Below are positions 8,497 to 60,305 of a stretch of DNA of 64,000 bases, in pieces. Origin of the DNA: Thermomicrobiales bacterium (GTDB lineage: Bacteria > Chloroflexota > Chloroflexia > Thermomicrobiales > UBA6265); assembly GCA_023957115.1 (NCBI GenBank), contig JAMLHN010000018.1:1-64000 (forward strand). Reading direction: 5' to 3'. The notes under the pieces were generated by a model. The model had not been told where the DNA came from. It saw only the letters and a list, made by a program, of their open reading frames with translations, and searched no databases. Made by a program: the position numbers and the translations under genes. Position 1 is the first letter of the stretch; every line of letters begins with the position of its first letter.

Positions 8497-9591
8497 GTGG
8501 CCGATTCCACAGTTCCAGTCAATATGCGCGATCCTCACGGGAGCCGGGCGGCGGAGCATATCCGCACGCAGGCGAACCTTCAGGTGGTCGACCGTCTTGA
8601 CGATTTGCAAACCAAATCGCTGGGAGGTGGCGCCCCCGAGAAGCTGCGCACCTTCACGGTCAGCACCCGCCTGCGCGGCCGCAGCCTGGTGGAAGACACG
8701 GATCTGACCACCGATGAGATTCTGGATCTGCTTGACACGGCCTCCCGCCTGAAACGGATGCATCGCCAGGGCGAGGCGCACACCTACCTTCCAGGCAAGA
8801 CCCTGGGAATGGTCTTCCAGCATCCCAGCACGCGCACCCGCGTCTCGTTCGAGGCAGGAATGGCGCAATTGGGAGGAACCGCAATCTATCTGGGCGTCAA
8901 CGATCTGCAACTGCGCCGGGGCGAGACGGTTTCAGACACGGCCCAGGTACTCGGCCGGTATGTCGACGTTCTGGTTGCCCGGGTGAAGCTGCACAGCGAC
9001 ATCCAGGAGCTGGCCGCGAACGCTGGTATTCCGGTGATCAACGGGCTTTCCGACGAGTTCCATCCGACCCAGGCGCTGGCCGACCTGTTGACCCTGCAAG
9101 AGAACTTCGGTCGTCTCCAGGGACTGAAGGTGGCCTATGTCGGGGACGGCAACAATGTTGCCGTTTCCCTGATGCTGGCCGCCTCGGCGGTCGGGGTAAG
9201 CGTCCGGATGGCGAATCCGGAGGGATACACGCCGCCAGCCGATATCGTCACTCAGGCAACCTGGCTGGCCGCAGCCAGCGACGCAACCCTTGAGATGTAT
9301 CGCGATCCCCGGGAAGCCGTTCGCGGCGCGGACGCGGTCTATACCGATGTTCACGTCTCGATGGGCATGGAAGAAACCGCCGCGCGCGCGGTTGCGCTGG
9401 CTCCATACAAAGTGACCACCGAGCTCATGAGTCTGGCCGCCCCGAACGCGATCTTCATGCACGACCTGCCGATGCATCGCGATGAAGAAGTCGAGGCGGC
9501 GGTCGCCGACGGACCACAGTCCGTCATCTTCGATCAAGCCGAAAACCGGCTGCATGCACACAAGGCGCTGCTGTTGCAGATGCTGTGCTGA
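8497..9591 (+). CDS. argF: Ornithine carbamoyltransferase
   Basis: Makes citrulline from ornithine and carbamoyl phosphate. The start is the GTG at 8497 behind GGAAGGGAG, giving 364 residues with about 45 extra N-terminal residues compared with most family members. The carbamoyl-phosphate loop STRTRVSFE, the FHPTQALADLLT motif and VSMGMEE are present. The ornithine-binding motif, normally HCLP, reads HDLP (MHDLPMHR), so the usual Cys is Asp. The C-terminus FDQAENRLHAHKALL is typical. The arginine T-box upstream and lysW downstream support an arginine role. An alternative substrate (for example a modified ornithine) cannot be excluded because of the motif change. Confidence 0.9.
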   Translation: MADSTVPVNMRDPHGSRAAEHIRTQANLQVVDRLDDLQTKSLGGGAPEKLRTFTVSTRLRGRSLVEDTDLTTDEILDLLDTASRLKRMHRQGEAHTYLPGKTLGMVFQHPSTRTRVSFEAGMAQLGGTAIYLGVNDLQLRRGETVSDTAQVLGRYVDVLVARVKLHSDIQELAANAGIPVINGLSDEFHPTQALADLLTLQENFGRLQGLKVAYVGDGNNVAVSLMLAASAVGVSVRMANPEGYTPPADIVTQATWLAAASDATLEMYRDPREAVRGADAVYTDVHVSMGMEETAARAVALAPYKVTTELMSLAAPNAIFMHDLPMHRDEEVEAAVADGPQSVIFDQAENRLHAHKALLLQMLC

Positions 9592-9685
9592 GCCGCACAC
9601 GGAACACGCATCCAGCGAAACTGCGGACGGGGCGGTCTCGTCCGTAAATGGAAACGAAGAACTGAGGAAGGAAACGAGAAAACCA

Positions 9686-9847
9686 ATGGTCGAATGTCCT
9701 GAATGCGGAGCGGAGTTCGATGCCGGCGCAGTTGAAGTGGGCGAGATCATCGTCTGCCCCGATTGCGGCGTCGACCTGGAAGTACTGACGGTCGACCCGG
9801 TGACAGTCGGTCAGGCGCCCGAGGAAGGCGAAGACTGGGGCGAATAG
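9686..9847 (+). CDS. lysW: Amino-group carrier protein LysW
   Basis: A 53-residue acidic carrier. The alpha-amino group of 2-aminoadipate (lysine branch) or glutamate (arginine branch) is linked to its C-terminal glutamate, and intermediates stay attached until LysK releases the product. A zinc knuckle is formed by CPEC near residue 4 and CPDC near 24. The C-terminus is EDWGE, the exact attachment signature of the family. A purine-rich ribosome site (GAGGAAGGAAACGAG) precedes the ATG. The gene is 94 bp after argF and upstream of the degenerate LysX-like gene and lysK. Confidence 0.97.
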   Translation: MVECPECGAEFDAGAVEVGEIIVCPDCGVDLEVLTVDPVTVGQAPEEGEDWGE

Positions 9848-9943
9848 CGATAAGGGTCCGGAGTTCTGAGTCCGGAGTGTTTCTCCGGCACCCGGGCTCC
9901 GGACCAAGAGCGCGGCGAGATGGCAGGAAGATTGGACAGGGAA

Positions 9944-10867
9944 ATGGGTAACGTAGCGGTGCTTTGCACCCGGGTTCGAGTCGAGGAGAAGCAGCTACTG
10001 GCGGGGTTCGCGAACGCGGGCATCCCGGCGGAGCCAGTTGCCCCCGAGTCGGACCCGTTCCCTATTCCGCGAGTCAGCCTCGCCACCACCGGGTTCGATC
10101 AGACCGCCACGTCCTCCGCCGGCAACCATCGCTTCTCGATCGTCATCGACCGGTTGCAAAATCGATCGGTGGGGAGCGCGATCATTCGGAATCACCGGGC
10201 CGTGGGAACGCCGGTCATCGATAGCGGAATCGCCGCGACCGGCAACCGGCTCGAGGTGTTGCATGCGCTGGCGGGGGCGGGGCTCCCATTGCCGCCAGTC
10301 CTGCTTGCGCTTTCGGAGGGCGCCGGTCTGGTCGCCATCGAGCAGACCGGCTATCCGGCCACGATCTTTCCCATGCAGATCGGTCTCTCGGGTATCGGCC
10401 TGCAAGATCGCGAGATTGCGGAAGCGATCCTGGAGCATCGCGATACGCTCGGCGGCTCGGCCGAGGCCGTGTTCGTGGTCCAGGCGGGCATTCACAACGA
10501 AGACGATCTGATCAAGGCGGTCGTGGTCGACGGAATGGTTGTCGCCTACGAGGGCACCTGTCTGCATCCAAACGGATTCGCCGGCTGCGAGCAGCTGGCC
10601 GTTGCCGCCGCGGCGGCGCTTGGCGCCACGTTCGTTGGCGTCACGATGGCGCACACGGCGGACGGTCTGGTCGTCTGGGACGTCCGTCCCACACCCGATT
10701 TCCGCAGGTCGATTCCGACCGGGACCGCGACCGTCGCCGATGCGCTGGTGGCGCTGGCGCAGCGGACGTCGAGCATGAATCCGGTTTCTGGTTCGATCTC
10801 TCGGGCGACGATGCCCTCATTGGTCGGAGCGTCCGGCCTGGGGAACGACATTGTCCTCTCAGCCTGA
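9944..10867 (+). CDS. Degenerate LysX/RimK-like ATP-grasp homologue
   Basis: A 307-residue protein (or 315 from an ATG at 9920) that aligns along its length with the two LysX-type ligases downstream. Its opening, VAVLCTRVRVEEK, matches [14 protein letters not shown] of lysX. Family active-site segments are eroded. The [14 protein letters not shown] segment that carries the ATP-binding Lys has become FPMQIGLSGIGL. The metal-binding [11 protein letters not shown] has become DVRPTPDFRRS, losing Glu and Asn. RDIRSFVV has become DLIKAVVV. It is probably not a ligase. It overlaps lysK by 17 bp, so it belongs to the Arg T-box operon. It might act as a LysW-binding adaptor or regulator; that is speculation. 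The reading frame is intact, which argues against simple decay. Confidence 0.8.
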   Translation: MGNVAVLCTRVRVEEKQLLAGFANAGIPAEPVAPESDPFPIPRVSLATTGFDQTATSSAGNHRFSIVIDRLQNRSVGSAIIRNHRAVGTPVIDSGIAATGNRLEVLHALAGAGLPLPPVLLALSEGAGLVAIEQTGYPATIFPMQIGLSGIGLQDREIAEAILEHRDTLGGSAEAVFVVQAGIHNEDDLIKAVVVDGMVVAYEGTCLHPNGFAGCEQLAVAAAAALGATFVGVTMAHTADGLVVWDVRPTPDFRRSIPTGTATVADALVALAQRTSSMNPVSGSISRATMPSLVGASGLGNDIVLSA

Positions 10868-11924
10868 AACGATCGCCGAACACGACACGACCGCTGCCGG
10901 CCAAATCGACCTGCTGCACGGGCTCGTTGCCATTCCGAGCCTGAGCGGCGAGGAGCGCGCGGCGGTGACCTACCTGGTTCAGGAAATGAGCGCGCGAGGG
11001 CTGGATGCGCATATCGACGCGGCCGGCAACGCCATTGGGGTCAAGGGCAACGGTCCGACCAGGATTGTGCTGCTTGGGCATATCGATACGGTGCCGGGCG
11101 ACATCCCGGTCCGGGTCGACGACGGCGTCTTGCACGGACGCGGCTCCGTCGACGCCAAAGGCCCCCTGGCCACGTTCGTCGCGGCAGCCGAACAGGCGTC
11201 GGGACAGAACGCAACGATCACGGTGGTCGGCGCGGTTGGCGAAGAGTCGATCGGTTCACCGGGGGCACATCATGCGGCCACCTGGCCGGCGCCCGATCTC
11301 TGCATCATCGGGGAACCGAGTAGCTGGGACGCGGTCTGTCTCGGATACCGGGGCACCATCTCATTTACCTATCGACTCGTCCAGGCAGGGCGGCATACCG
11401 CGGGTCCGGGCGAGACGGTTGGCGAACTGGGCGTGCAGTTCTGGAATCTGTTGCTGGCCGAGATTCAGCGTCTCAATGGCGACTCCGAAGGGTTCCACTC
11501 TATTGGAACATCCCTGCGATCGATCAATACCTCGACCGATGGTTTGTATGACACGGTCGAGATGTCGATTGGAATTCGCATTCCGCCGGCGGTGCCGTCC
11601 GCTCGTGTCCTGGAAATCATCGACGGACTCAGGGATCGGGCCGAAATCGAACTGCACGGGGTCCAGGAGGGGTATTCGACCAACAAGCGAAATCCGATGA
11701 CGGCTCCCTTTCTACGCGCCATTCGAGCCGAGGGCGGAAACCCACGGTTCACGCGCAAGCTGGGAACCGCGGATATGACCGTGGTCGGCCCCGTCTGGCA
11801 ATGCCCGATCGTGGCCTATGGTCCCGGCGATGCCGCACTCGATCACACCCCGGAAGAACGGATCGATCTGGATGACTACGTGCGGGCCGTACGGGTCCTG
11901 ACAGCAGTGCTGGATGCGGTATGA
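10851..11924 (+). CDS. lysK: [LysW]-lysine/ornithine hydrolase
   Basis: M20-family metallopeptidase that cleaves the finished lysine or ornithine from LysW. 357 residues from a TTG start at 10851, inside the end of the preceding gene. Metal ligands are visible in LLGHIDTVPG (His, Asp), GRGSVDAKGPL (Asp), VGAVGEESIGSPGA (Glu-Glu) and IIGEPSS, with a C-terminal His in LDHTPEE. The length and the GSVDAKGP motif suit LysK rather than ArgE or DapE. A 4-bp ATGA overlap couples it to the ArgX-type ligase. Confidence 0.93.
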   Translation: MSSQPETIAEHDTTAAGQIDLLHGLVAIPSLSGEERAAVTYLVQEMSARGLDAHIDAAGNAIGVKGNGPTRIVLLGHIDTVPGDIPVRVDDGVLHGRGSVDAKGPLATFVAAAEQASGQNATITVVGAVGEESIGSPGAHHAATWPAPDLCIIGEPSSWDAVCLGYRGTISFTYRLVQAGRHTAGPGETVGELGVQFWNLLLAEIQRLNGDSEGFHSIGTSLRSINTSTDGLYDTVEMSIGIRIPPAVPSARVLEIIDGLRDRAEIELHGVQEGYSTNKRNPMTAPFLRAIRAEGGNPRFTRKLGTADMTVVGPVWQCPIVAYGPGDAALDHTPEERIDLDDYVRAVRVLTAVLDAV

Positions 11925-12868
11925 CCATTTCGCATTTCATCAATGATCCGTTGACCGAAGATAGCGACATACGACTGGGCGTGCTCGTATCGCATCTGCG
12001 CATGGAAGAGAAGCTTATTCTCGAAGCAGGACGGCGGCGCGGCCTGGCCATCACACCGATCTTCGATCGGAAGATCGTGCTCGATCTTTCGAATCTTTCC
12101 GGGACGGCGGCATCGAGCTTCCCGTACGATGTCGTGCTCGACCGAAGCGTGGCGCACTCGCGCGCGCTTTACAGCTTGAAATCCTTCGAAGCGTGGGGCA
12201 TCCCCACGCTCAACCGGTCGACCGCCACCCAGATCTGCGACGACAAGGCGCTCTGTAGTCTGGCGCTTGGCTCGGCCAATGTACCGACGCCGCGCACGTT
12301 GCTCGCCTATTCGATCGAGTCCGCGCTGGAAGCATGTGCGTTGCTGGGATACCCAGCCGTGCTCAAGCCGGTTACCGGTTCCTGGGGGCGCCTGCTGGCC
12401 AAGGTGAACGGACCGGATCAGGCAAAAGCCCTGCTGGAACAAAAGGTGTCCCTGGGCTCGTATCAGCACGCGCTCTTCTACGTGCAGGAATACCAGGAGA
12501 AACCGGGGCGCGATATTCGCGTCTTCGTCGTGGGTGACCGGGTTTTGGCGGCGAGCTACCGGTCGGCCGATCATTGGATTACCAATACGGCCCGGGGCGC
12601 GTCTTCGTCGAAGTGCCCGATCACGCCCCAGATCGAAGATATCGTGCTGAATGCATGTCAAGCGGTCGGCGCGCGGCTGGCTGGGGTCGATTTGATCGAA
12701 ACCTACGATGGCTATACCGTGCTCGAAGTCAATACCGGTGGCGAGTTCCACGGACTGATGACGACCACCGATGTCGATATCGCCGGTGAGATCGTCGAGG
12801 AGGCGATGCGCATCGCACGCGCATCGGCCATGCGTCGTCTCGAAACGACTACCGCTGCAGGAGATTGA
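11921..12868 (+). CDS. argX: LysW ligase, ArgX type (glutamate--LysW)
   Basis: ATP-grasp ligase joining an amino acid to the C-terminus of LysW, 315 residues. Active-site segments are intact: [16 protein letters not shown] (ATP-binding Lys), FYVQEYQE, GRDIRVFVVGD and the metal-binding EVNTGGEFHG. The final segment differs from the lysX paralogue ([11 protein letters not shown]), as expected for different substrates. It is last in the operon behind the Arg T-box, so glutamate to ornithine (ArgX) is the better guess. The assignment of this gene to Arg and the next ligase to Lys is inferred from the leaders and this motif, not proven. Confidence 0.85.
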   Translation: MTISHFINDPLTEDSDIRLGVLVSHLRMEEKLILEAGRRRGLAITPIFDRKIVLDLSNLSGTAASSFPYDVVLDRSVAHSRALYSLKSFEAWGIPTLNRSTATQICDDKALCSLALGSANVPTPRTLLAYSIESALEACALLGYPAVLKPVTGSWGRLLAKVNGPDQAKALLEQKVSLGSYQHALFYVQEYQEKPGRDIRVFVVGDRVLAASYRSADHWITNTARGASSSKCPITPQIEDIVLNACQAVGARLAGVDLIETYDGYTVLEVNTGGEFHGLMTTTDVDIAGEIVEEAMRIARASAMRRLETTTAAGD

Positions 12869-12902
12869 CAGGAGCCAAGGCATTTCCTAAGCTCAATATC
12901 AA

Positions 12903-13220
12903 TGGCTTCGACGGGGAGTTCCCGGTGGGTCCGAAGCAGCAGAGAGCGGGTAGCTGGTGTGAATCCCGCGGATAGTCGGCCCAGAGGACAAGACCCCAGA
13001 GCCGCCGGAAGAAGCGGAGCGGACGCTCCCCAGTAGAACCGGCCGGGTGCTCCCGTTACTGAGCTCAGTCTGTACCGAGCAACCCGTTGGTCCGCCGCGC
13101 GCGGCGATGCGACGGAACGCTCGACTGGCTGACGAGGCCGTCCGCCAAAAGAGGACGGCGAACAAAGGTGGTACCACGGAGTGAAGCCCTCCGTCCTTTG
13201 GACGTGGGGCTTCTGTATTT
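12903..13220 (+). promoter_or_regulatory. T-box leader, specifier AAG (Lys)
   Basis: Second tRNA-sensing leader. The specifier loop is AGTT (12917-12920) opposite GAC (12987-12989), followed by AAG (12990-12992, lysine) and a purine. The lower helix is GGGG (12913-12916) with CCCC (12994-12997). The distal AGAGAG and GGTGTGAA motifs of Stem I are at about 12941-12963. The T-box sequence AAAGGTGGTACCACGG lies at 13164-13179. A terminator stem GAAGCCC (13183-13189) with GGGCTTC (13207-13213) is followed by TGTATTTATT. Uncharged tRNA-Lys should raise lysX expression. The AGTT/GAC pair departs from the usual AGTA/GAA, so the codon call is slightly less secure than for the Arg leader. Confidence 0.88.
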
Positions 13221-50606: not shown

Positions 50607-50849
50607 ATGACAACGAAAGGCCACGAGGGGAGCTGGGTCACGATCGATGTCGGCTATGTCGACCCGCAACGGCGCTCGTGCGCGCTTTGTGGGCGACCAC
50701 TGGCGCGCCGGATCTGGCGCGAAAATGTCGAAGGCCACATGCGCGAGTTCTGTGAACCCGCACATGTCGCCCTCTATCGCGACTACTGGCTTCCGCTCTA
50801 CGGCGCCGGTGCGGCTACCGCTTCTTCGGAGCCTCGGCTTCCGACTTGA
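50607..50849 (+). CDS. Small Cys-rich protein next to hyuAB
   Basis: An 80-residue protein starting 3 bp after hyu[14 protein letters not shown] and a later [16 protein letters not shown] provide Cys-x2-Cys and Cys-x3-His, a plausible zinc site. A third small subunit is known in related acetone and acetophenone carboxylases; whether this is such a subunit is inference from position. Its last 35 bp overlap the convergent slipin gene. Confidence 0.7.
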
Positions 50850-51603
50850 GCAGGTTCTCCGGCAGGAGTCCGAGCAATTCGATTGGGAGCGGGAAGACGA
50901 TTGTCGTGTTCTTCTCGGTCCCGATCTCGCCCAGCGTCTGCAGATAGCGGAGCTGCAAGGCAACCGGTTCCCGCGCGATCACATTTGCGGCTTCGGAGAG
51001 TTGCTGGCTCGCCTGGAACTCGCCTTCGGCGTGAATGATCTTCGCCCGCTTCTCTCGTTCGGCCTCAGCTTGCCGGGCCATCGCGCGCTGCATCGACTGC
51101 GGCAGCTCGACGTCCTTGACCTCGACGATCGAAATCTTGACGCCCCAGGGCTCGGTTTGCTCGTCGATGATCCGCTGCAGCTCGGCGTTGATCTTCTCTC
51201 GTTCCGCCAGCAGCTCATCGAGCGACGATTGACCGAGCACGCTGCGGAGGGTCGTTTGGGCAATCTGCGATGTCGCGCGAATGTAGTCGGTGACATTCGT
51301 CACCGCGGCCGCCGGATCGATCACGCGGAAATAGGACACCGCGTTGACGCGTACCGTGACATTGTCCCGGGTGATGACTTCCTGCGAAGGAACATCCATC
51401 GTCACCGTGCGCAGGTCGACCTTGGTCATCCGCTCGACGAACGGCAAGAGGAGGATGAGACCGGGGCCCCGGGGGCCAACCAGGCGACCGAGCCGGAAGA
51501 CCACGCCGCGTTCGTATTCACGGACGATCTTGACCGATGCGAGCAACACGATCAGGACGAAGAGAATGATGACGGCGACCAGCGCCAGGCCAACTGCGGC
51601 CAT
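50815..51603 (-). CDS. Slipin/stomatin-like SPFH protein
   Basis: Membrane scaffold protein, 262 residues from the ATG at 51603 (AAGGAG site). One N-terminal span ([16 protein letters not shown] type) precedes the SPFH domain: [60 protein letters not shown]. The Ala/Glu-rich oligomerisation helix has [20 protein letters not shown]. It follows the NfeD gene by 51 bp; slipin and NfeD proteases are a known conserved pair. Confidence 0.94.
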
Positions 51604-51654
51604 ATGGGGACGCTCCTTTCGAGCTACGCCGGCGCGGTCCGCGCACGACAAGAA

Positions 51655-53079
51655 TTACACAGGTTCCGGATTCCCCCAGGGTGGAACGGCCACCGACGCG
51701 CCCCCGCGCTGTTCGGCGTCGGTTGCGGGTCGAACGATCAAACGCAATCCATCGAGGCCGATCACGACCACGGAGTGCCCCTGTTCGAGCTCGTGATGGC
51801 CGGTCGATTCGTCGAGCGTGGCGCTCCAGAGCTCGCCTTGCGCGAAGACCATGCCGCTCGGCGCGAGCGTTTGCCGCACGACGCCGATCGCTCCCATCAA
51901 CCCTTCCCGGCCGACTTGCGACCGATTGAATCGCGTTTTCAAGGCGAAGGCCCCCATCAACACAAAGAATGTGGCAAGACAGATTGCCACGGTCCAAACG
52001 ACGACGCGTGAAAGCTCATACCCAGGAACACCCTCGTCGATGAGCATGAACGAGCCAAAGAGAAACGCCGCAACGCCACCCACAGTGAGCAAACCCGCGG
52101 ATGGAAGAAAAATGTCCGCGGCAAAGAGCAGGAACGCCAATCCCATCAGCGCCACGCCGGCCCAGTTGACCGGCAATGTGCCGAGCGAGAAGAGCCCGAC
52201 GATCAGCCCGATTGCCCCGGCGATTCCCGGCAACATTGCTCCTGGGTTCGAAAGCTCGAAGAAGAGCCCGAGCATGCCGAGACTGAGGAAGATGTAGCCG
52301 ATCGTCGGGTCGGCCAAGAATTGCAGCAATCGCTCGAAGACGCTCATCTCGACCGACGTTGTTTCCGCGCCGGCTGTGGCCAGGGTGACCGGGCCGCCGG
52401 CAAGCTCGACCGTACTGCCATCGATCTCGTTCAGCAGGGTTGGCAGATCGGGCGCGACATAGTCGATGACCCCCAACGCCAGTGCCTCGTCAGCCGTGAT
52501 GTTTGCGGCGTCGCGAACCGCGGATTCGGCCCAGTCGGCATTGCGACCGTACTGGTCCGCCAGATTGCGGATACGGGCGACGGCATCGTTGGTGATCTTG
52601 ACCGACATCGTGTCGTCGACATCGGAGACATTTCCGTCGGCGCCGAGGAAAACCGGCGAGGCCGAGCCGATATTGGTACCGGGGGCCATGGCCGCCACCT
52701 GCGACGCATAGCTGATGAAGACCCCGGCCGAGGCGGCACGCGCGCCACGCGGCGCCACATAGACGATGACCGGAACCTCGCTCTGGCTGATGTCCTCGAT
52801 GATGTCGTCCATCGCGGAGCTGAGTCCGCCGGGCGTATCCATCTCGAACACCACCGCGGCCGCCCCGTCGCGTTCTGCCCGGTCGATCGTCTTCTCAACA
52901 TACCGTGCCATGACCGGCGTAATGGTGCCGTCGATTTCCCCAACGATCACATGCGGCTGGTCGGATTGGGCAAACGAAGCCGTCAACGGCCAGAACAGGC
53001 CGATCGCAAGACAAAAAAGCCCCAGGAGCGGGAGTATCGGCCGCCGCGCAGATCGTTTCGTTTGGATATTGGTAGGCAC
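51655..53079 (-). CDS. NfeD-family membrane serine protease
   Basis: Long-form NfeD (NfeD1b type), 474 residues. Signal peptide (ILPLLGLFCLAIGLFWPL). ClpP-like domain with FEMDTPGG, catalytic Ser in ARAASAGVFISYA and catalytic Lys in SVKITNDAVARIR. Four to five membrane spans follow, then a C-terminal OB-fold domain (GAIGVVRQTLAPSGMVF, GHSVVVIGLDGLRL). It is thought to act with the slipin encoded next. Start ATG 53079. Confidence 0.93.
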   Translation of the reverse strand: MPTNIQTKRSARRPILPLLGLFCLAIGLFWPLTASFAQSDQPHVIVGEIDGTITPVMARYVEKTIDRAERDGAAAVVFEMDTPGGLSSAMDDIIEDISQSEVPVIVYVAPRGARAASAGVFISYASQVAAMAPGTNIGSASPVFLGADGNVSDVDDTMSVKITNDAVARIRNLADQYGRNADWAESAVRDAANITADEALALGVIDYVAPDLPTLLNEIDGSTVELAGGPVTLATAGAETTSVEMSVFERLLQFLADPTIGYIFLSLGMLGLFFELSNPGAMLPGIAGAIGLIVGLFSLGTLPVNWAGVALMGLAFLLFAADIFLPSAGLLTVGGVAAFLFGSFMLIDEGVPGYELSRVVVWTVAICLATFFVLMGAFALKTRFNRSQVGREGLMGAIGVVRQTLAPSGMVFAQGELWSATLDESTGHHELEQGHSVVVIGLDGLRLIVRPATDAEQRGGASVAVPPWGNPEPV

Positions 53080-53404: not shown

Positions 53405-54298
53405 CTACAGGAGCTCGTGCTGGATGATGATCCATCCGCTGATTGCAGTCAGGACGGCCGTCACCGCCAGCGCGGCCCAGAAGAGCTGCTTCTGCAGATG
53501 CAATCCGCGCTTCGAGAAGTTGATCAGGATGATTCGCAATCCATTGAGTGTGTGATAGAAGACGGCGCCAACCAGCGCAATCTCCATTGGAATCAGGAAC
53601 GGTGCCGCATAGACCGAGACCGCCTCGTCATAGACCTCCATGCTGAATCCGATCAGCATGATGTCGACGATATGGACGAGGAGGAAGAAGACGATTCCGG
53701 CTCCGGCCACCCGGTGGAGGATCCAGGCGTACTGGCCAAGATCGCCCCGGTAGATCGGCCGGGTGCCCAGGCTGATGTGCCGCAGAACGTAAATCACCAG
53801 CAACGCAGCGCCAACGTAGGTTGCGACCGCAAAGAGGTAGAGCGACCACTTGATGAGGTCGGCAACCCAGAACGCATCCGCCAGCGGACCGGCGTTCGAC
53901 CGGCCCTGCTCCTCGTCGAATGCGAAGATCGTAACTACGCCAAGCGCGAAGAAAATGATCCCGACCAGCCAGTTCAATCCATTGAGCGCAACGCGCCATC
54001 CGGCCGGTCGGATGAGATCGGTAATGATCATGCGAAGTCCGAGCATTCCGTGCCAGAGCGCGAAGAAGAGCAGCAAAAAGTCGAACGTCCGCCAGAAGGG
54101 ACTCGCCCAGCGGTTTGCAACGAAGTCAAACGTCGTCTCAGACGGTACATTGATGAAGTGCGTGATGATGACATGCCCACAGGCAAGAATCACCAGCGCC
54201 AATCCGGAAATCCGCAGGAAGTACCAGACGGCTCGGTCGAACCCGGGAATGCCCGCACTCACATCTGAATTCGGTCGCTCCGAAACCACCGCCGCCAT
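53405..54298 (-). CDS. Fused SdhD-SdhC membrane anchor of succinate dehydrogenase
   Basis: A 297-residue membrane protein with two halves. Residues 20-150 resemble actinobacterial-type SdhD (LRISGLALVILACGHVIITH, ASPFWRTFDFLLLFFALWHG, LRMII). Residues 190-297 resemble SdhC (WILHRVAGAGIVFFLLVHI, MEIALVGAVFYHTLNGLRII). Each half has about three spans and candidate haem-ligand His. The start is the ATG at 54298, ten bases after AGGAGGG; a GTG ten codons upstream is less likely. It should anchor SdhAB and pass electrons to quinone. sdhA and sdhB are not next to it in the window. Confidence 0.85.
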   Translation of the reverse strand: MAAVVSERPNSDVSAGIPGFDRAVWYFLRISGLALVILACGHVIITHFINVPSETTFDFVANRWASPFWRTFDFLLLFFALWHGMLGLRMIITDLIRPAGWRVALNGLNWLVGIIFFALGVVTIFAFDEEQGRSNAGPLADAFWVADLIKWSLYLFAVATYVGAALLVIYVLRHISLGTRPIYRGDLGQYAWILHRVAGAGIVFFLLVHIVDIMLIGFSMEVYDEAVSVYAAPFLIPMEIALVGAVFYHTLNGLRIILINFSKRGLHLQKQLFWAALAVTAVLTAISGWIIIQHELL

Positions 54299-59803: not shown

Positions 59804-59830
59804 ACTCCGAAATCCCAACTCCTAACTCCT
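59804..59830. repeat. Heptamer-type repeat at the moaC stop
   Basis: AACTCC units (AACTCCGAAATCCCAACTC, CTAACTCC) abut and overlap the moaC stop codon. The 19-mer at 59810-59828 is the exact reverse complement of 2936-2954. Confidence 0.85.
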
Positions 59831-60305
59831 AAGGTTCCCTCACCCAATGCCCGCTTCGGCCGCCTTCTTTCTCCTGCACGCCGATCCCCTCGATGGTCAT
59901 GCCCCGATCGACGGCCTTGACCATGTCGTAAATGGTCAGCGCCGCGCCCGAAACGGCGGTGAGCGCTTCCATTTCCACGCCGGTTTGACCGCGCGTTTCG
60001 ACCGTCGCTTCGATGCCGATCCCGTCCGGCTCGATCGCGAACGAGACGGCGACCTTGGTCAGCATCAGCGGATGACACATCGGGATCAGATCGGACGTTT
60101 TCTTGGCGGCCATGATGGCCGCCACCTGGGCGACTGCCAGAACATCCCCCTTCTTTGCACGTCCCTCACGGATCAGCTCGACCGTCTCGGGTTGCATCCG
60201 CACGAACCCGGTGGCGACCGCACGGCGGGAGGTAACCTCTTTTCCGCCGACGTCGACCATGTGGGCGCGTCCAGATTCATCGAAGTGGGTCAGCTTTTCC
60301 GGCAT
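59829..60305 (-). CDS. moaC: Cyclic pyranopterin monophosphate synthase
   Basis: Second step of molybdenum cofactor synthesis, forming cPMP from the MoaA product. 158 residues, a normal length. Motifs [58 protein letters not shown] and VKAVDRGM with the active-site Lys and Asp. Other moa genes are not in the window. It starts 4 bp after the sugar-isomerase gene stop, in one transcript. Confidence 0.96.

Follow-up and report, generated by a model that had tools for sequence, protein, structure and literature searches.

Complex II enzymes are sorted into classes A to F according to their membrane anchor, and the portion of that classification consulted here (PMC10238741) describes the class A anchor as two three-helix subunits, sometimes accompanied by the single-helix SdhF, the class B anchor as one five-helix chain carrying two haems, and the class F anchor as one six-helix chain together with a Rieske cluster. 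The class A di-haem succinate:menaquinone oxidoreductase Sdh2 of Mycobacterium smegmatis (PDB 6LUM) is built with separate three-helix SdhC and SdhD chains and the one-helix SdhF. In the excerpts consulted from PMC7447783, the ligands of its proximal haem are His D107 and His C87 and those of its distal haem His D65 and His C47, and SdhF lies near SdhC helix I, where it blocks the proximal quinone site. Here, we describe a gene from a Thermomicrobiales bacterium that very probably encodes, on one chain of seven helices, the complete di-haem quinone anchor of a class-A-like succinate:quinone oxidoreductase.

The gene is located in a 64,000-nucleotide stretch of DNA analysed in full (the window), at positions 53405-54298 on the minus strand, where an uninterrupted frame encodes 297 amino acids plus stop, with an AGGAGG-like motif preceding the ATG at 54298. 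The initial annotation, made from the letters alone, had recognized in this frame an SdhD-like half followed by an SdhC-like half, reversing the usual gene order, and both parts of this reading were borne out. The SdhD-type half (residues 20-125; 53924-54241, minus strand; helices 20-49, 67-95, and 99-125 in the structure model) was matched by the SdhD model TIGR02968 over residues 25-124 with 51.5 bits (cut-off 41.8), and the SdhC-type half (residues 180-296; 53411-53761, minus strand; helices 187-217, 233-261, and 265-295) by the SdhC model TIGR02970 over residues 182-288 with 77.1 bits (cut-off 52.3). The Pfam family Sdh_cyt (PF01127) matched the protein twice, with 83.4 bits against a cut-off of 25.8, all three superfamily profiles thus scoring above their curated cut-offs. 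Both equivalog models also matched all 26 members of alignment A2, from which L102 was left out; alignment A1 omits L011 and L016, which are cut at contig ends. With regard to order, the split genes of sister families run sdhC-sdhD. A stop between the halves was looked for and none was found, the frame being open throughout. Since the same fused frame recurs in 25/32 genomes of the family and in 26/51 loci of a larger collection, the fusion is confirmed as real and no accident of assembly. In two unclassified bacteria (L120 and L129), separate genes are ordered sdhD-sdhC-sdhA-sdhB and, therefore, D before C exists unfused too.

Each half resembles its Sdh2 counterpart. The two halves are about 40% identical to SdhC and SdhD of Sdh2 over approximately 115 columns, and a phmmer search of PDB chains aligned 6lum_D to residues 15-129 and 6lum_C to residues 179-282. 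In a structure model of the fused protein (pLDDT 83.9, pTM 0.80, 26 sequences), the predicted SdhD half superposes on 6lum_N with Z 16.7 and an rmsd of 0.9 over 115 residues, and the predicted SdhC half on 6lum_C with an rmsd of 2.1 over 116 columns. All four bis-His haem ligands are kept according to the alignment to the 6lum chains: His42 (54173-54175) and His209 (53672-53674) are the equivalents of His D65 and His C47, ligands of the distal haem bD, and His83 (54050-54052) and His249 (53552-53554) those of His D107 and His C87, ligands of the proximal haem bP, all codons lying on the minus strand. The four histidines are invariant in the 26-row alignment and in 23/23 proteins of a fused set that includes distant members (20 proteins from relatives and the window, plus L105, L134, and L135), and R63, the equivalent of Arg D87, is also invariant in these 23 proteins. 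Because the equivalents of the four ligands and of R63 never vary, the fused protein keeps the residues of a di-haem anchor of class A type, suggesting that it binds both haems. It differs from Sdh2 in being one chain, in having D before C, and in carrying an internal extra helix.

It is this extra helix that overturned one claim of the initial annotation, which had counted six membrane spans. There are seven, because the segment joining the two halves is itself a membrane helix (residues 143-176; 53771-53872, minus strand), absent from split SdhC and SdhD. Two hydropathy scales gave seven maxima in the window's protein, the fourth of them (residues 153-171) lying between the halves, and the model shows a 34-residue helix there in addition to the six listed above, with less certainty at the connection that follows it (block mean 62). 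The linker region forms one membrane segment in 23/23 fused proteins, its best 19-residue means ranging from 1.87 to 3.01. The span count of the whole protein depends on the threshold, seven spans being detected in 20/23 proteins at 1.2, in 16/23 at 1.4 (with six spans in 5 proteins and five in 2), and in 8/23 at 1.6. That a strict threshold leaves some members with only six maxima, and that the family models cover just the six core helices, would fit a six-span SdhD-SdhC chain in which the linker is a loop or a surface helix, but the hydrophobicity of the linker in every member and its modelled helix make such a chain very improbable, as does the orientation that it would impose on the SdhC half.

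Native SdhC and SdhD have three helices each, with the N-terminus in the cytoplasm. Two such units joined directly would therefore leave the second half upside down, and a seventh helix is topologically needed because each three-helix half must start in the cytoplasm. The charge pattern argues for the upright orientation, which the extra helix would restore in the SdhC half, and against the inverted one. The loops predicted to be cytoplasmic, including the one after the extra helix, are rich in Lys and Arg compared with most periplasmic ones, the mean number of these residues per loop being 2.3, 2.2, 2.95, and 3.8 inside versus 2.15, 0.9, 0.8, and 0.2 outside, with the exception that the first external loop (46-73), at 2.15, is not poor in them.

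Sdh2 likewise totals seven helices (3 + 3 + 1), which makes it attractive to read the linker as an SdhF-like element. By analogy with the mycobacterial enzyme, the protein would then represent a separate complex II class, a seven-helix one-chain di-haem anchor whose fourth helix does more than correct the topology: it would lie near SdhC helix I as the covalent counterpart of the free SdhF and shut the proximal quinone site, confining quinone reduction to the distal side. We consider this rather unlikely. The linker sequence lends no support to a likeness to SdhF: a 52-residue piece found no match to SdhF or to any PDB chain at E values up to 10, although so short a query excludes little. Should the extra helix act like SdhF, it would bear on the site of menaquinone reduction in di-haem enzymes.

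The fused protein shares its single chain with class B anchors (Wolinella FrdC and Chloroflexus aurantiacus 9LAY chain C) and with the class F anchor of M. smegmatis Sdh1. Assignment to either of these known classes might be suggested by the weak matches to the b558 profile TIGR02046 in 21/26 members and by the presence of class B chains among the structural matches, with Z about 12 and an rmsd of 4 to 5. However, the fit to the separate Sdh2 chains is much better, and the profile touches the C half only and remains far below its cut-off: in the eight proteins itemised, the match ran from profile position 7 to at most 87 of 212, with at most 22.9 bits against a cut-off of 96, and the window's protein was not matched at E 0.01. 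The b558 family was thus rejected as a full-length fit, and a better full-length match to another cytochrome b family, which the initial annotation had named as grounds for giving up its reading, was absent. The helix number also differs from class B, seven compared with five (likewise an odd number, and with two haems, in the part of PMC10238741 consulted). The same part gives class F six helices and a Rieske cluster, and the fused protein has no such cysteines; its only cysteine is C40 and, consequently, it has no Rieske site. Membership in class B or class F is therefore extremely improbable. The fused protein is better described as a class A variant that is covalently joined, permuted, and built of seven helices; it would work like class A but departs from it in being one chain instead of two subunits.

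The initial annotation had proposed a search for fused versions among relatives, and these were found. Within the window's order, where 61 genomes were searched, a full-length or near-full-length fusion is present in 25/32 genomes of the window's family (f1) and in 1/2 of family f4. Separate halves occur in 4/5 genomes of family f2 and in 18/21 of f3, with one further f3 genome matching in the C half only. In the single f5 genome searched, neither the fusion nor its halves were matched; a genome of this family (G028:C281:3551-4195) has instead an anchor of class B type (b558), with 210 bits. No split sdhC/sdhD pair was detected in any of the 32 f1 genomes, and the 7 in which the fusion was not found are 64-90% complete. 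Among the fused matches, the one in G054 is flagged for a TAG within the matched span, and those in G015 and G017 are cut at contig ends. Beyond the order, 158 genomes of the class yielded one further fusion (G151), and a phylum sample of 400 genomes two more (G223 and G180). Finally, a collection of 84,980 species genomes yielded 51 loci. The fusion was present in 26 of them, each with Thermomicrobiales, Chloroflexia, or Chloroflexi as its title, and the other 25 were split or represented by one half; this list was obtained with two exact peptide patterns, is hence not exhaustive, and includes neither G223 nor G180 among its identified loci. A linker profile scored in the fused loci only of this 51-locus set. 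A genome scan with the single protein as query gave no match, and the loci were recovered with an alignment-based scan.

The fused proteins are also held together phylogenetically. Of 119 loci with both halves, 84 were distinct, and the omission of 21 by hand (12 fused and 9 split) left a 63-row alignment, from which the linker columns were also omitted. In the resulting tree, the 17 fused rows group into a single clade (99/93, one change), although the bootstrap had yet to settle completely and the long branches of split rows leave the deeper order uncertain. The linkers of G223 and G180 are recognisably the same as that of the window's type. A single origin of the fusion, followed by transfer or loss, would fit these data best.

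With respect to the catalytic partners, the remark in the initial annotation that sdhA and sdhB are absent nearby proved accurate. They are not on the window's contig (C10 of the home genome, G000), and were found, both over their cut-offs, at G000:C5:25064-27484. The fusion and sdhB lie on different contigs in 18/18 genomes where both were found (17 of f1 and 1 of f4, the home genome included); this count covers genomes with a fused gene and an over-cut-off sdhB, and G008 and G016 have the fusion and no such sdhB. Sister families with the split arrangement sdhC-sdhD-sdhA-sdhB (for example, G038 and G033) carry the same SdhAB lineage, with SdhA about 67-70% identical, and both of their anchor genes are homologous to the corresponding halves. 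Their split form differs from the fusion in consisting of two genes, in the C-D order, directly before sdhA and without a linker helix. It follows that the operon of f1 lacks both genes and that the fused gene lies elsewhere, the anchor being encoded apart from sdhAB across the whole family.

This separation, together with a small membrane protein ORF that follows sdhB (L144:8662-9036, minus strand, in the home genome), might indicate that the fused protein acts on its own as a cytochrome b, for instance a quinol-linked haem protein, and that SdhAB is anchored by something else. The ORF, which matched no Pfam family over its cut-off, is found in many members of the order, in fused and split families alike; it was rejected as a substitute anchor because sister families that keep sdhCDAB have it too. 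Moreover, Sdh_cyt (PF01127) matched the assembled home genome just twice, in the fusion's own halves, and no b558 (TIGR02046) anchor was matched there. The pairing with SdhAB in the home genome thus rests on exclusion, the two loci being unlinked in 18/18 genomes, and since this genome is 90.86% complete, a further anchor could lie in its unassembled part. That the fused chain is an SdhAB anchor is most strongly supported by the two distant genomes, in which linkage is direct: in G223, sdhA-sdhB is immediately followed by the fusion, and in G180 the fusion comes directly after sdhB. Taken with the home genome, this makes a stand-alone cytochrome quite improbable. Since the SdhAB of G223 and G180 shares only 35-38% identity with the home type and is yet linked to the fusion, the fused chain as SdhAB anchor may serve two different SdhAB lineages. 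This divergent lineage comes with the fused anchor in L146 (G223) and L147 (G180) and with split sdhC and sdhD in L170 (G349) and L122.

Two minor observations concern sdhA itself. In two genomes of genus g3 of the window's family, two tandem sdhA genes lie beside sdhB (L152 of G021, 9493-13123, and G002:C30:18360-22017). The home genome also contains an SdhA-like flavoprotein match in two adjacent pieces in different frames (G000:C23:215457-216952), which we take to be perhaps a frameshifted aspartate oxidase.

Altogether, the data support the single-chain quinone/haem anchor proposed in the initial annotation, and suggest how it may work. The whole membrane anchor of complex II would be carried on one chain, with the three SdhD helices first and the three SdhC helices last. 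The SdhD half would end on the periplasmic side, and the recruited helix would return the chain to the cytoplasm, allowing the SdhC half to insert in its native orientation. The halves would then pack like a class A anchor around two b haems, bP held by H83/H249 and bD by H42/H209, and dock SdhAB made from the unlinked operon. SdhB and then the haems would presumably relay electrons from succinate to quinone.

The chemistry would therefore be that of an ordinary complex II, and it is the build that surprises. The architecture is real, conserved and, as far as our searches reach, undescribed, no published account of a fused anchor having been found in the openly licensed papers searched, and its functional reading is clear. 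Anchor classes are sorted by chain and helix number, a scheme that the fused anchor breaks: class A haem ligands, one chain as in class B, and seven helices form a combination under no class listed in the consulted portion of PMC10238741. It also cleanly illustrates a parity rule for membrane protein fusions, namely that two same-facing units with odd numbers of helices can be joined only by helix gain or loss.

As for the surroundings of the fused gene, window positions 50815-53079 encode an NfeD-type membrane protein and then an SPFH/Band 7 protein. In several genomes, the fused gene has a MoaC-like gene, so named by eye, close by or immediately ahead of it (window 59829-60305; L086:7146-7679; L088:7249-7848).
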